Positions 17,771 to 23,342 are shown, numbered from the stretch's first letter. The stretch: DNA of 53,652 nucleotides from Haloarchaeobius iranensis (GCF_900103505.1 NZ_FNIA01000022.1:1-53652); one strand, 5' to 3'. Program-made: numbers and translations. Notes: generated from the sequence alone by a model not told the origin.

Positions 17771-19243
17771 ATGCTCTCGGGTCTGCGGGCCCGCCTCCAG
17801 CGGCTCCTCGCCCGCGTCCGCCGCGTCGAACGCCGCGAGCTGCGTGACTTCCGTCGCTGGCTCGAGCACACCAACAACCTGCTGCACCTCTCCGTGCTGG
17901 TGTTCGTCCCGCTGCTCATCGCCCTGGTCACGTACGTCTCGAACGCGTCGCCGGCGCTGTCGTTCCTGCTGTTCCCGCCGCTGGCCTCGGGGACGTACAC
18001 CCTGTTCTCGGACCCGGAGGGGAAGTACGCCTCGCCGCCGAAGTTCGTCGGCGGGATGACCGTCGGCGCGGTGTGTGGCTTCCTCGCCATCGAACTCTCC
18101 GGCGTGGCGGGTGTCAACGGCGGCACGGCTATCGGCATCCAGTCGGTGAGCGCGCTGGACGCCGGGCTCAGCATCTTCCTCACCGGCGCGGTGACGTGGA
18201 CGCTCGACCTGGAGGAGCCGACGGCGTTCTCGACCGCACTGTTGACCCTGCTCACGGGCGGTTCGCGCGGCGAGTACGTCCTGAGCGTGATGCTCTCGAC
18301 GGCGTTCGTCGCCACGGCGTTCTACGCCTGGCGCGAGCTGTTCTACGACCGGCGCGCGGAGTACCTCTACCGCACGACGCAGGGCGACGACCACGTGCTG
18401 GTGCCGGTCCGCGGCGACACCGCCGACGAGACGGCGATGTTCGGCGCACGCATCGCGGCGGCCCACGACGCCGGGAAGGTGGTGCTGCTCGACCTGGTGT
18501 CCGAGAGCGAGATCGCCGAGGCGGAGGCGGGTATCCGCCGGGACGAGGACGACGGGCCGGGACCGGAGGCCGACGCGGGCGAGACGGACCCGACGACGGA
18601 GGCGGAGGAGCAGGTCGCGGGACAGGCGGCGATGCGGCTGGAGCGCCTCGCCGGCCGTATCCAGACCAGGGTCGGCGTCCCCTGCGAGGTCGTCGTCGCG
18701 AGCGGGTCCGGCAGTCCCGCGAACGTGGTGCTCAGGACGGCACAGGAGGCGAACTGCGACCTCGTCGTGACGCCGTACGAGGAGCGCCACGGGAGCCTCT
18801 CCCCGTTCGTCAAGTCGCTGTTCGACGACCCCATCGACGTGGTTGCGTTCCGTTCGGTGTCCGGCCGGACCCGCTGGCGACGGGTGCTCGTCGCGGTGGC
18901 TCGGCCCGGGGACAACGCGCACGCCATGCTCGACTTCGCCCAGCGCGTCTCTCGTGCGACGGGGACGGTGAGCGTCTGCACCTGCATCGACAGCGAGAGC
19001 CACCGTCGGCGTGCGGAGTCGATGCTGGTGAACCTCGTCGAGCCGTTCGACGGCACGTTCGAGACGCGCGTCTCCCGGGACTCGATCCAGGGTTTCCTCA
19101 GCGCGAACGCGCCGTCGCACGATCTCGTCGTCGTCGGTGCGAGCACCGACCGGACCGCCGCCTCGCGCTTCCTCGCACCACCGACGTTCGAGAAGCTCCG
19201 CGACGTGGACTGCGACGTGGCCATCGTCCACCGGGGCGGGTGA
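17771..19243 (+). CDS. HPP membrane domain fused to tandem universal-stress-type domains
   Basis: The 490-residue protein opens with a four-TM HPP domain (about 40-190: LSVLVFVPLLIALVTYVSN, FLLFPPLASGTYTLFSDPEG, FVGGMTVGAVCGFLAIEL, LSIFLTGAVTWTLDLEEPTAF). Two USP-like alpha/beta domains follow in the cytoplasm (about 212-355, beginning DDHVLVPVRGDTADE, and 370-490, WRRVLVAVARPGDNAHAM to DVAIVHRGG). An acidic linker near 255-280 splits the first. Some HPP proteins transport nitrite in plants and cyanobacteria, and USP domains often bind ATP. The combination suggests a transporter with a nucleotide-sensing tail; this is inferred. The ATG at 17771 follows a TTTTCT box by about 28 bases. Confidence 0.82.
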   Translation: MLSGLRARLQRLLARVRRVERRELRDFRRWLEHTNNLLHLSVLVFVPLLIALVTYVSNASPALSFLLFPPLASGTYTLFSDPEGKYASPPKFVGGMTVGAVCGFLAIELSGVAGVNGGTAIGIQSVSALDAGLSIFLTGAVTWTLDLEEPTAFSTALLTLLTGGSRGEYVLSVMLSTAFVATAFYAWRELFYDRRAEYLYRTTQGDDHVLVPVRGDTADETAMFGARIAAAHDAGKVVLLDLVSESEIAEAEAGIRRDEDDGPGPEADAGETDPTTEAEEQVAGQAAMRLERLAGRIQTRVGVPCEVVVASGSGSPANVVLRTAQEANCDLVVTPYEERHGSLSPFVKSLFDDPIDVVAFRSVSGRTRWRRVLVAVARPGDNAHAMLDFAQRVSRATGTVSVCTCIDSESHRRRAESMLVNLVEPFDGTFETRVSRDSIQGFLSANAPSHDLVVVGASTDRTAASRFLAPPTFEKLRDVDCDVAIVHRGG

Positions 19244-19301: not shown

Positions 19302-20480
19302 CTAGTCCGACGGGCCCCCGCCCTTCAGTATCTTGTCGGCCACGTCCTCGGTGTCGCCCCGGCCGAGTGCCGATTCGACGAGCAGGTGGCCGCCGATGGC
19401 CGCCGGGCTGATGACGGTGTCCGCGCCGGCGCGCTTGAGCTTCTTGACGTTCTCGCGGTCGGTCGCCGCGGCGACGATGCGGACGTCCGGCCGGAGCTGG
19501 CGGGCGGTCAGCACCGCCAGTGCGTCCTCCGCGTCGTTGTTCGTCGCGGTGACGACTGCGGTCGCGTCCGACAGCTGCGCCCGCCGGAGCGGCTCCTCGT
19601 CGCTCGGGTCGGCGGTGATGACGTTCATCCCGCGGTCGGAGAGCTCGGCGGCGCGCGCCTGGTCCGGCACGATGACCACGAACGGGACGTCGCCGTCGGT
19701 GAGTTCGTTCAGTATCGGTTCGGTCAGGTCCCCGTAGCCGAGGACGATGACGTGGTCTTCGAGCAGGTCGAGCTGTGTTTCTGTCATTCTCCCAAGTGCG
19801 CGTTGGAACCGGGCTTCGAGCAGCGGTGCGAGCAGCGTCCCCAGCGCGACCGTGAAGCTCACGACGCCGAGGACGACGACCGAGAGGGCGAACAGCTTCC
19901 CGCGGGTCGAGGTCGGGCCGGGCGTCACGTCGCCGTAGCCGACCGTGCTGGCGGTGACGATGGTGTAGTAGAACGCGTCGACCAGCCCCGCCGAGCCGTC
20001 CCGGATGGCGGGGAACTCGTCGCGGAGCGCGTACGCGCCGACAGTGCCGTACACCTGGACGCTCGCGAGGATGATGCCGGCCGCCAGCTGCGAGGTCGAC
20101 AGCGAGAGCTTCCGGTCGAAGCGGCGGCGGTTGACGAGCAGGCCGGGTATCGCCAGCAGCGACAGGCCGACGAGCGGGTACGCGTACGGGCTGGTCTGGA
20201 TGACGCCCTGCAGTGCGGCCAGCGGGAGCAACAGCAGCGCGCTGTACCACGCGCCGCGTCGTCGCCGCCGGAGCGCGTAGGCGCTCAGCAGCAGCAGGAA
20301 GCCGGTCATCGTGCCGGTGAACCCCGCGGTCTGCTGGACCGCCTCGGGGATGTACGGCGAGAGCGGGCCGGCGCGGGCGGACCCGATGTTCGCGATGCCC
20401 GTCGCGATGGAGAGGACCGCGGAGAGACCGGTCAGCGCGACCGGCAGCCGTGCGCTCGTCAACCTGTCCAGCAGTCCCAT
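19302..20480 (-). CDS. Potassium channel with cytoplasmic RCK (TrkA-N) domain
   Basis: The 392-residue protein has about six TM segments in its first 220 residues. A pore helix and the selectivity filter T179-V-G-Y-G-D184 lie before the last one. A TrkA-N domain follows (VIVLGYGDLTEPILNEL, VPDQARAAELSDRGMNVITADPSDE). The nucleotide motif is GYGDLT, so the last Gly of the usual GxGxxG is missing. There is no clear TrkA-C domain after it; the chain ends at a short tail. Proteins with exactly such C-terminal-type domains are encoded divergently at 20591 and 21844. It probably mediates gated K+ flux across the cell membrane. Confidence 0.9.
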   Translation of the reverse strand: MGLLDRLTSARLPVALTGLSAVLSIATGIANIGSARAGPLSPYIPEAVQQTAGFTGTMTGFLLLLSAYALRRRRRGAWYSALLLLPLAALQGVIQTSPYAYPLVGLSLLAIPGLLVNRRRFDRKLSLSTSQLAAGIILASVQVYGTVGAYALRDEFPAIRDGSAGLVDAFYYTIVTASTVGYGDVTPGPTSTRGKLFALSVVVLGVVSFTVALGTLLAPLLEARFQRALGRMTETQLDLLEDHVIVLGYGDLTEPILNELTDGDVPFVVIVPDQARAAELSDRGMNVITADPSDEEPLRRAQLSDATAVVTATNNDAEDALAVLTARQLRPDVRIVAAATDRENVKKLKRAGADTVISPAAIGGHLLVESALGRGDTEDVADKILKGGGPSD

Positions 20481-20590
20481 ACGCCGTCAGTGCGCCGCCA
20501 TCGGTGAAAAGGGTCGCGGTGTCGGCACCGATTTCGGCCGCCAGCACCGGCGGCGACACCGATTTACCGTCGGCACCCGAGGGCAGGGAC

Positions 20591-21847
20591 ATGGCGTCGC
20601 TTCCCGTCGAGGTCCTCTACGGTATCTACCTCGGTCTCCTCACCGGTATCATCCCCGCGCTCGTGTCGGGCTCGCTCGGGTTCCTGTTCAAGTACGTGAC
20701 CGGCGTCACGCTCCCCGGGCTCGGGGTCGTGGTGCTGTCGGTCGCTATCGCCGGCGTCAACGGCGGGCTGATGGGCCTGCTCGACCCGACGGTGTCGAGT
20801 TCGCCCCGGCTGCTCGTCGCGGTCGTCGTCATCATGATGCTCTCGCTGTGGGCGCACAGTCAGGGCGACAAACTCGGCGTGTCGATGCCCAAGCGGGTGA
20901 CGTTCGCGTCGCTCCGCCGACGCAACATCTCGGCGGACGTGGTCGACATCGTCGGCGGCGTCGGAAAGGTCACGCTGCGGCCGTCCGGCCCCGTCCGCGA
21001 CATGGAGGGCTATCCGCCGCTGCCCGCGGACCTGCGCGAGACCATCGCCGAGGGGTCGTGGTCGCTCCCGGCGGACCTGCCGCTCGCCGAACTTGAGAGC
21101 CGCCTCGTCGACCGGCTCCGAACGGAGTACGACCTCGCGGACGCCGCAGTGACGCTCGACACCCAGGGTCGGGCGACCATCGCGGCCGCCCCCCCGGCGA
21201 GTGGCCTCTCCCGGCGCATCCCGCCGGGCAAGCGCGCGGTGTCGGTCACGGCGCTGCTGCCGACCGGCGCAGCCCGCGGCGACTCGGTCGTCGTCCGGAC
21301 GGGCGAGACACGTGTCGCGGGGACGCTGCTGAGTGCGAAGAGCGACGGCTCGCCCGCGCCCGCCCCGCCGACGCCGGACGCCGACGACGACGGCGGTGTG
21401 GCGACCGACGGAGGAACGGACGACGTCACGGTCCCGGCACCGACCGCGCCGACGACGACCGGTGGGGAGGGCCGGCTCACGGCCGCGGTCACCCGCGAGC
21501 AGGCCCGGACGCTGCTCGACGTGGACCGTGCGCAGGTCGCCGTGACCTCGCGTGGGACCCGCCGCGAGTTCGAACTCGTCTCGTTGCTCCGGCGCTCGGG
21601 GCGGCGCTTCCGGAAGGTGTCCGTCCGCGCCGAGGGCCCGCTCGACGGCGTCACCATCGGCGACGCGACCATCCGGGACAGCTACGACGTGACGGTCCTC
21701 GCGCTCCGCCACCCGCCAGAGGCCAACAGCGTCGACCGCTCGTGGGCGTTCTCGCCACGCGGTGACGCCGAGCTCTCGGCCGGTGACGAGCTGTTCGTCG
21801 TCGGGCGCCAGCCCGCCCTCGTGGCCTTCGCGGAGGCGGTCGCATGA
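20591..21847 (+). CDS. Membrane-anchored TrkA-C/RCK-like protein, paralogue 1
   Basis: The 418-residue protein has about three N-terminal TM helices (LYGIYLGLLTGIIPALV, GVVVLSVAIAGVNGGLMGL, LLVAVVVIMMLSLWAHS). A large soluble part follows with two regions resembling TrkA C-terminal (RCK-C) domains, one around 130-260 and one ending SAGDELFVVGRQPALVAFAEA. An Asp/Gly/Thr/Pro-rich linker (about 255-295) lies between them. It has no pore and no TrkA-N nucleotide-binding domain. Its stop overlaps the next start by ATGA, so the pair is co-translated. The role is unknown; a ligand-sensing or regulatory subunit for the divergent K+ channel is the working idea. Confidence 0.8.
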   Translation: MASLPVEVLYGIYLGLLTGIIPALVSGSLGFLFKYVTGVTLPGLGVVVLSVAIAGVNGGLMGLLDPTVSSSPRLLVAVVVIMMLSLWAHSQGDKLGVSMPKRVTFASLRRRNISADVVDIVGGVGKVTLRPSGPVRDMEGYPPLPADLRETIAEGSWSLPADLPLAELESRLVDRLRTEYDLADAAVTLDTQGRATIAAAPPASGLSRRIPPGKRAVSVTALLPTGAARGDSVVVRTGETRVAGTLLSAKSDGSPAPAPPTPDADDDGGVATDGGTDDVTVPAPTAPTTTGGEGRLTAAVTREQARTLLDVDRAQVAVTSRGTRREFELVSLLRRSGRRFRKVSVRAEGPLDGVTIGDATIRDSYDVTVLALRHPPEANSVDRSWAFSPRGDAELSAGDELFVVGRQPALVAFAEAVA

Positions 21848-23025
21848 CGGGGCTCGTCGCCGCACAGGTGGACTTCGGTTCGTTCGACCCCGTCGCCGAG
21901 ACGGCCCGCATCCTCGCGCTCACCGGGCTGGCGACGGTCGCGGCGCTCGTCGTCGCGGTCGTCTACCGGTGGTACACCCGCGAGCGGGTCCCCGAGGGGG
22001 TCTCCGTCCTGCTCGGCGTCAGCGCGGTCGCGCTCGTGCTCAACACGGAGGAGACGCTGAAGCTCGTCATGCAGGGCCGGGACGGGCTTCCGGCGGAGGC
22101 GACGGCGGTCGTCACCGTCGCGACGTTCGTCGCCGCGGCGCTCGGCACCGGGCTCGGACGACGACTCGGTGACGGGGTCGCGTCGAACGCCTTCGCGGTG
22201 ACGGGTGCCGCGCGGCTCGACCGGGAGGTCTCCCAGCTGGTGCGGGCCGTCGGCCGCGTCGTCACCGTCACCCTCCCCGACGAGGTCGACGACATCGACG
22301 GTTACGACCCGGTCGACCCCGAGGTGAAGGCGGACCTCGCCGGGACGACGTTCGTCTTCCCGCGGCGCATCACCGTCGCGGACCTCCAGGACCGGGTCGT
22401 TACCCGGCTGAAGGACGACTACGGCGTCGGCCACGTCGACCTGGAGCTGGAGCCCGACGGCACCGTCGAGTACCTCGCCATCGGCTCGCGCGCGGCGGGA
22501 CTCGGGCCGACGCTCGCGCCGGGCACCGTCGCGGTCGCGGTCCAGGCCGACCCGGCGAACGGGGCCAGCCCTGGTGACGTGGTACAGGTGTGGGAACGTA
22601 CCGACGACGAGGGGCTCGTCCGGCACGCGACCGGCGAACTCCGCGCGACGACCGAGAAGGACGTGGTCACGCTCGCCGTCGACGAGACGGACGCCGAGGC
22701 GCTCTCGGACACGACGACGTACCGGCTCGTCACCCTGCCCACCGAGCCGTCGGCCGACAGGGAGTTCGCGTCGCTGCTTCGTGCCGCCGACGAGACGATG
22801 AGCGCGGTCGAACTCGCCGACACCAGCGAGCTGGTCGGCCGGAGCGTCGCCGACCTCGACGTGACGCTGGCCGCCATCCGCGGCCCCGATGGTGGTGTGA
22901 CCGCTACGCCGCCCCGGGGCACCGAGCTCGTCGCGGGCTCGACGCTGTACATCGTCGAGCGACCCGCGGCACTCCGGCGGTTCGAGGCGCTCGCCCGTGG
23001 GGAGGAGGCGAAACCGCTTTCCTGA
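21844..23025 (+). CDS. Membrane-anchored TrkA-C/RCK-like protein, paralogue 2
   Basis: The 393-residue protein repeats the plan of its upstream neighbour: about three N-terminal hydrophobic helices (ILALTGLATVAALVVAVVY, VSVLLGVSAVALVLN, AVVTVATFVAAALGTGLG). A soluble region follows with PRRITVADLQDRVVTRLKDD and a closing RCK-C-like TELVAGSTLYIVERPAALRRF. The shared segments ITVADLQDR/LPLAELESRLVDRL and TLYIVERPAAL/ELFVVGRQPAL show the two genes are distant paralogues. The ATGA overlap gives translational coupling. No pore or nucleotide motif is present. The function is inferred only as a partner of paralogue 1 and possibly the channel. Confidence 0.8.
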   Translation: MTGLVAAQVDFGSFDPVAETARILALTGLATVAALVVAVVYRWYTRERVPEGVSVLLGVSAVALVLNTEETLKLVMQGRDGLPAEATAVVTVATFVAAALGTGLGRRLGDGVASNAFAVTGAARLDREVSQLVRAVGRVVTVTLPDEVDDIDGYDPVDPEVKADLAGTTFVFPRRITVADLQDRVVTRLKDDYGVGHVDLELEPDGTVEYLAIGSRAAGLGPTLAPGTVAVAVQADPANGASPGDVVQVWERTDDEGLVRHATGELRATTEKDVVTLAVDETDAEALSDTTTYRLVTLPTEPSADREFASLLRAADETMSAVELADTSELVGRSVADLDVTLAAIRGPDGGVTATPPRGTELVAGSTLYIVERPAALRRFEALARGEEAKPLS

Positions 23026-23045: not shown

Positions 23046-23342
23046 ATGCAGTGGAAGCTGTTCGCGGACATCGCAGAGCGCGCCGGCACCGACGCGGTCG
23101 CGGTCCGGCTCGACGGCGACGACCCGACCGTCGGCGACGCGCTCGACGCCCTCCTCGAGACATATCCGGCCCTCCGCGAGCGCGTGCTCGTCGACGGCGA
23201 GCCGGAGTCCCGTGACGGCATCGCACCCGACGTGAACGTCCTGCTCGACGGCGCGGACGTGTTCACGACGGCGGACGGGCTGGCGACCGAGGTCAGCGAG
23301 GGCGCGGAGCTGGCGCTGTTCCCGCCCGTGAGTGGCGGCTAG
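23046..23342 (+). CDS. samp1: Ubiquitin-like small archaeal modifier protein 1 (SAMP1)
   Basis: The 98-residue beta-grasp protein of the MoaD/ThiS fold starts MQWKLFADIAERAG, contains VGDALDALLETYPALRERV and NVLLDGADV, and ends GAELALFPPVSGG. The terminal Gly-Gly is adenylated by the E1-like UbaA. It is then joined to target lysines, or carries sulfur for molybdopterin as MoaD does. The PPVSGG end and N-terminus are those of haloarchaeal SAMP1. The loop before NVLL (EPESRDGIAPD) is slightly long. No UbaA or MoaE gene is near. It starts 20 bases after paralogue 2, so co-transcription is possible. Confidence 0.9.
   Translation: MQWKLFADIAERAGTDAVAVRLDGDDPTVGDALDALLETYPALRERVLVDGEPESRDGIAPDVNVLLDGADVFTTADGLATEVSEGAELALFPPVSGG

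Follow-up and report, generated by a model that had tools for sequence, protein, structure and literature searches.

How a putative potassium channel gene of Haloarchaeobius iranensis relates to the two membrane protein genes that diverge from it is the question raised by the locus described here, which lies within a stretch of 53,652 nucleotides (NZ_FNIA01000022.1:1-53652; the whole of this stretch is called the window below). With K+ at molar levels in their cells, haloarchaea need to control how it is released, yet their K+ channels are poorly characterized. A sequence-only reading of the locus had proposed that the channel lacks a C-terminal RCK domain (RCK-C), and that the two neighboring proteins, here termed P1 and P2, supply this domain in trans. 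The features of the locus are collected in Table 1.

Table 1. Coordinates and parts of the genes at the channel locus, numbered from the first letter of the window.
Feature	Position	Strand	Start, size or score	Parts and remarks
HPP transmembrane region fused to Usp domain (HPP-Usp)	17771-19243	+		convergent with the channel
Kch-type K+ channel	19302..20480	-	ATG 20480 to stop 19302, 392 aa	~5-6 TM segments; TVGYGD filter, residues 179-184; TrkA_N/RCK-N, 244-359
Divergent intergenic region, channel/P1	20481..20590	.	110 bp	
P1	20591..21847	+	ATG start, 418 aa	TM helices 4-37, 43-63, 72-98; alpha/beta domain and beta-barrel; low-confidence linker 258-284; RCK-C 343-414
P2	21844..23025	+	ATG start, 393 aa	start overlaps P1 stop as ATGA; TM helices 16-45, 51-77, 85-135; alpha/beta domain; barrel; degenerate RCK-C 321-383 without pocket loop
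SAMP1 (ubiquitin-like small modifier)	23046..23342	+	NCBIfam 111 bits, cut-off 60	

Pfam searches with the window's channel returned Ion_trans_2 (49 bits) and TrkA_N (107 bits, with the motif VLGYGDLT) and no TrkA_C, and there is no recognizable domain past residue ~370; the earlier description of a channel with a TVGYGD filter, a TrkA-N domain with GYGDLT and no TrkA-C is therefore borne out. The same architecture of Ion_trans_2 plus TrkA_N is found in 32 of 32 aligned orthologs, and TrkA_C is absent from the families that these 32 match. PRK10537 (Kch) is the nearest named family in all of them; the window's channel scores 200 bits against it over residues 57-370 of 392, and since the NCBIfam equivalog cut-off of 425 bits is not reached the protein is, judged by its sequence, Kch-like and not Kch. 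It shares with Escherichia coli Kch a multi-TM pore with TVGYGD and one C-terminal RCK-N/KTN domain, but differs in being haloarchaeal, in its GYGDLT motif and in usually adjoining P1-P2. Among solved structures, MthK and 4gx0 (GsuK), a channel with two RCK domains, are closest to it in sequence. Residues 7-259 of MthK align to the pore and RCK-N of the channel, and its RCK-C matches the RCK-C of both P1 and P2, although in MthK the pore, RCK-N and RCK-C all reside in one chain.

P1 and P2 are paralogous (BLAST E 1e-9; hhalign probability 99.8, E 1e-29), and AlphaFold models together with hydropathy place three TM helices in each, in agreement with the initial view of two overlapping paralogs, divergent from the channel, with three membrane helices apiece. 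Mean pLDDT is 86 for P2 and 78 for P1, and given the low pTM the orientation of the domains in these models is unreliable. TrkA_C is matched at E <= 0.01 by all 40 P1 and all 39 P2 sequences; in the window's own proteins the TrkA_C (PF02080) scores are 37 bits for P1 and 22.3 bits for P2 against a Pfam cut-off of 27, so that P1 is an RCK-C protein by its Pfam score and P2 by family-wide matches and fold. Foldseek matches of the two domains include PH0236, MthK, KhtT and BusR, KhtT being the top match of P2. The best superposition on the P1 RCK-C is that of PH0236 (1vct/2bko; 1.0 Å over 81 columns), yet this match is confined to the RCK-C (residues 123-193), and the membrane helices and barrel of P1 are without a matched counterpart. 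In both proteins the likeness to RCK-C is limited to the last ~75 residues; the idea that their soluble parts resemble this domain holds for that stretch and fails for the rest. Neither a pore domain nor a Rossmann nucleotide-binding domain was matched in the P1 or P2 families (40 and 39 sequences), as had been anticipated, and positive charges past the third TM helix favor a cytoplasmic location of the heads.

The barrel of P2 resembles the 1B domain of IGHMBP2, and that of P1 carries an RcpC/CpaB-like motif (RAVSV...PTG.ARGD.V; window 21230-21343, P1 residues 214-251), which is odd in a K+ regulator. Matches to an S-layer family (NF052345) and to SMUBP-2 reflect weak local likeness of the barrel region, and an identity as MscS-like channels, which three TM helices and a barrel might bring to mind, was rejected, as there was no MscS among the Foldseek matches listed. 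P1 of Haloarchaeobius sp. FL176, the closest named relative, is 95% identical to that of the window.

An order-level survey covered 146 genomes of the window's order and yielded 113 places encoding P1. P2 is adjacent and co-directional at 111 of these, and the channel adjoins the pair at 80 (78 divergent upstream, 2 tandem upstream); among 80 named species, P2 adjoins P1 in all 80, the channel in 69 and SAMP1 in 61. The channel and both paralogs are thus a real and well-conserved unit across these haloarchaeal genomes, as the sequence-only reading had supposed. Across 247 genomes sampled from the phylum, full-length P1 is restricted to the window's order, with other orders matching in RCK-C domains only. 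The gap between channel and P1 has a median of 139-144 bp in other genomes. In Halorubrum the three genes are kept together despite different outer neighbors (e.g., an SDH operon), and in the two genomes with a tandem channel it lies 73-76 bp upstream of the pair, in a different neighborhood and with P1 on a separate branch in the one inspected (G012). The channel is not a neighbor of ~20 of the 101 main-type pairs; one of these (G023, L186:6516-12597) lies beside a CPA2 antiporter and a KhtT-like 170-aa TrkA_C protein, in a neighborhood that also encodes an RCK protein with two TrkA_N and two TrkA_C domains. Every pair-bearing genome that is >90% complete nevertheless encodes the channel somewhere, and the pair occurs without it in four genomes only, which are 61-81% complete. 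Co-occurrence of pair and channel has little power in itself, because the channel is near-universal.

The channel is present and the pair absent in 31 of the 146 genomes, many of them >95% complete, and in several the pair is precisely missing between the channel and SAMP1 or GNAT/asparaginase neighbors, with the HPP-Usp side intact. Mapped on a channel tree of 62 rows, the pair comes or goes 9 times, with good branch support for at least 5 of these changes, and within one genus P2 is carried by 10 of 17 genomes. Because the channel occurs without the pair in 31 genomes, and the converse is seen only in the four incomplete ones, gene content indicates that the channel is autonomous and that the P1-P2 pair is accessory.

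This distribution bears directly on the proposal of a split RCK, in which the channel would be without an essential half and P1 and P2 would complete its gating ring in trans. That RCK-N is found only in the channel and RCK-C in P1 and P2, the genes being adjacent in most genomes, gives the proposal its appeal. We consider it improbable all the same: members of the Kch family each have a single RCK/KTN domain and normally no RCK-C, and the channel is retained in genomes that lack the pair, with no domain there to compensate. Among 20 pair-less genomes examined, the channels consist of RCK-N followed by a short or low-complexity tail (Gly/Ser-rich in G115 and G138, the others ending soon after RCK-N as elsewhere), and none has gained an RCK-C. 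Furthermore, the genome of H. iranensis encodes 22 TrkA_C domains in all, indicating that other sources exist, and the RCK-C of P2 is devoid of the loop and helix of the ligand pocket. The notion of a "missing" domain is unsupported, and completion of an incomplete channel by the pair is contradicted by the autonomy of the channel and the accessory status of the pair, quite apart from being needless for a Kch-type protein.

Whether the pair acts on the channel at all was probed further by comparing evolutionary distances. Those of P1 and P2 stay correlated after controls (partial r 0.82), and the correlation between channel and pair goes down to 0.2-0.4 with the HPP-Usp neighbor as control; with this neighboring gene controlled, channel and P1/P2 distances show little correlation beyond common species history. 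Moreover, SAMP1, which starts 20 bases past P2 just as had been noted, is nearly as conserved a neighbor (61/80 named loci) as the channel, so that the channel-pair adjacency may in part be a frozen neighborhood; HPP-Usp is a neighbor in 21/80 named loci. The conserved position of SAMP1 lends no support to the regulatory link at which the sequence-only reading had hinted. A non-specific distance correlation and the long-term company of SAMP1 and HPP-Usp would suit an account in which P1 and P2 act independently of the channel, as an osmotic or envelope sensor or scaffold, and do not touch it; their adjacency to it would then reflect shared promoter control or the inertia of the neighborhood. 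The RcpC/CpaB-like barrel, present in 5/40 P1 members, points the same way, as does a sister clade, present in about a dozen genomes, whose diverged P1/P2 pairs adjoin a secretion/pilus-like ATPase cluster (HerA/T2SSE/DUF7311/DUF7382/DUF7857) and have no channel beside them. We nonetheless hold this account to be rather unlikely, since RCK-C domains are associated with the transport of cations and its regulation, the linkage of channel and pair outlasts the change of outer neighbors in Halorubrum and recurs in tandem orientation, and the unlinked pair of G023 sits among K+/H+ antiporter genes. The sister-clade pairs occur as second pairs (L172-L184, e.g., L172:7218-9529), and in two of them that were scanned RCK-C was weak or undetected.

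The explanation that we favor, with roughly even odds of being correct, is an obligate heteromeric complex of P1 and P2 in the membrane, whose cytoplasmic RCK-C heads would regulate K+ flux as an optional accessory, chiefly via the neighboring Kch-type channel; as to its role, regulation of K+ efflux by such a heteromeric accessory is most likely. This is supported by the inseparability of the pair, by the channel being its usual neighbor, and by the channel remaining unchanged where the pair is absent. RCK-C subunits acting in trans on K+ transporters are established, as shown by KtrA (PMC8517857) and KhtT (PMC7288161). KhtT of the KhtTU K+/H+ antiporter is, like KtrA and TrkA, a separate C-terminal RCK-C subunit that acts in trans on a K+ transporter, although it is soluble and partners an antiporter, whereas P1 and P2 are membrane-anchored, paired and channel-linked. 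In the mechanism that we envisage, the RCK-C domains of P1 and P2 would dimerize, as RCK-C domains do, and touch the RCK-N ring or the membrane domain of the channel; P1 would sense a ligand or a change in ions and thereby shift the open probability of the channel. The channel would work without the pair, which would tune and not complete it, and the most plausible role would be to limit or permit K+ release as external salt drops. Against the accessory regulator count the non-specific channel-pair distances, the ~20/101 unlinked pairs and the sister-clade neighborhoods without a channel, as well as the absence of salt regulation of composite genes, including the HVO_2617 family discussed below, in earlier transcriptomes, as given in a 2018 study (PMC5992828). 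A fusion of the channel to P1 or to an RCK-C, which would show contact, was found in none of 62 channels.

If P1 senses a ligand, cyclic di-AMP is a candidate. The best PDB matches of the P1 RCK-C include c-di-AMP-binding domains (KtrA 4xtt, KhtT, BusR), and a diadenylate cyclase (DAC) domain is encoded in the host genome. The messenger is essential in Haloferax volcanii and has a link to osmoregulation there, its targets being not known at the time of that report (PMC6741144). As an aside, the Usp domain of KdpD binds c-di-AMP in Firmicutes (PMC8214093), and a Usp domain is also part of the HPP-Usp neighbor. We compared the KtrA pocket residues I163, I164, D167, I168, R169, A170, N175, I176 and P191. 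Pocket positions of KtrA or BusR kept in P1 comprise a hydrophobic residue at I163, the Gly as in BusR (31/40), Arg169 (34/40), a small residue (A or T) at N175/T165 and Pro191 (39/40); I174 corresponds to V in P1, and the pocket loop is deleted in the RCK-C of P2. However, the kept residues are common RCK-C consensus positions and not diagnostic, P1 does not retain the Asp167 and Ala170 positions, the loop is degenerate in at least 5 P1s, and other RCK-C proteins of the genome are equally good candidates. Sensing of c-di-AMP by P1 is thus possible and no more than a lead, while a c-di-AMP receptor in which P1 would couple the DacZ-made messenger to the channel, with P2 as its non-binding partner, appears improbable. 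Scarcely better are the prospects of the broader conjecture of a Haloarchaea-specific, membrane-anchored heteromeric RCK-C pair that would act in trans as an auxiliary gating subunit of a Kch-type channel and would sense c-di-AMP or another nucleotide through P1. If true, it would provide both a K+-channel auxiliary subunit of a new kind in prokaryotes and the first archaeal c-di-AMP effector in osmoregulation. We know of no auxiliary subunit of this kind for prokaryotic K+ channels.

Part of this module has been encountered before. The 2018 Genome Biol study described a composite family, 1329 / HVO_2617, found in haloarchaea only, for which K+ uptake was proposed, and which resembles P1 in its three-pass N-terminus, C-terminal TrkA domain, length of ~400 aa and Haloarchaea-exclusive distribution (PMC5992828). 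HVO_2619 is SAMP1 (PMC4500146), and the order of the locus therefore fits P1-P2-SAMP1. By published description and locus order, the P1 family is very probably composite family 1329 / HVO_2617. No other paper on haloarchaeal pchA/TrkA-C proteins was found in the literature searched, and the accessible part of the HVO_2617 account reports neither pair, channel linkage, losses nor fold (PMC5992828). Pairing, channel linkage and repeated loss of the pair appear unreported in the literature searched; the unit is mostly undescribed, in line with the proposal of a possible undescribed module, and a P1-like gene was published in 2018.

The unit offers a concrete candidate in a genetic model, namely HVO_2617-2619 of Haloferax volcanii by published numbering. 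An action of P1 and P2 on the channel, if borne out, would mean that membrane-bound auxiliary subunits exist for K+ channels of prokaryotes too, as they do for eukaryotic BK channels. Natural pair-less strains provide ready-made comparisons. In two pair-less genomes (G040 and G065; L202:6051-8487, L203:3849-8497) the channel comes after same-strand Na/H-exchanger-type antiporter-like genes, named from similarity and sequence.
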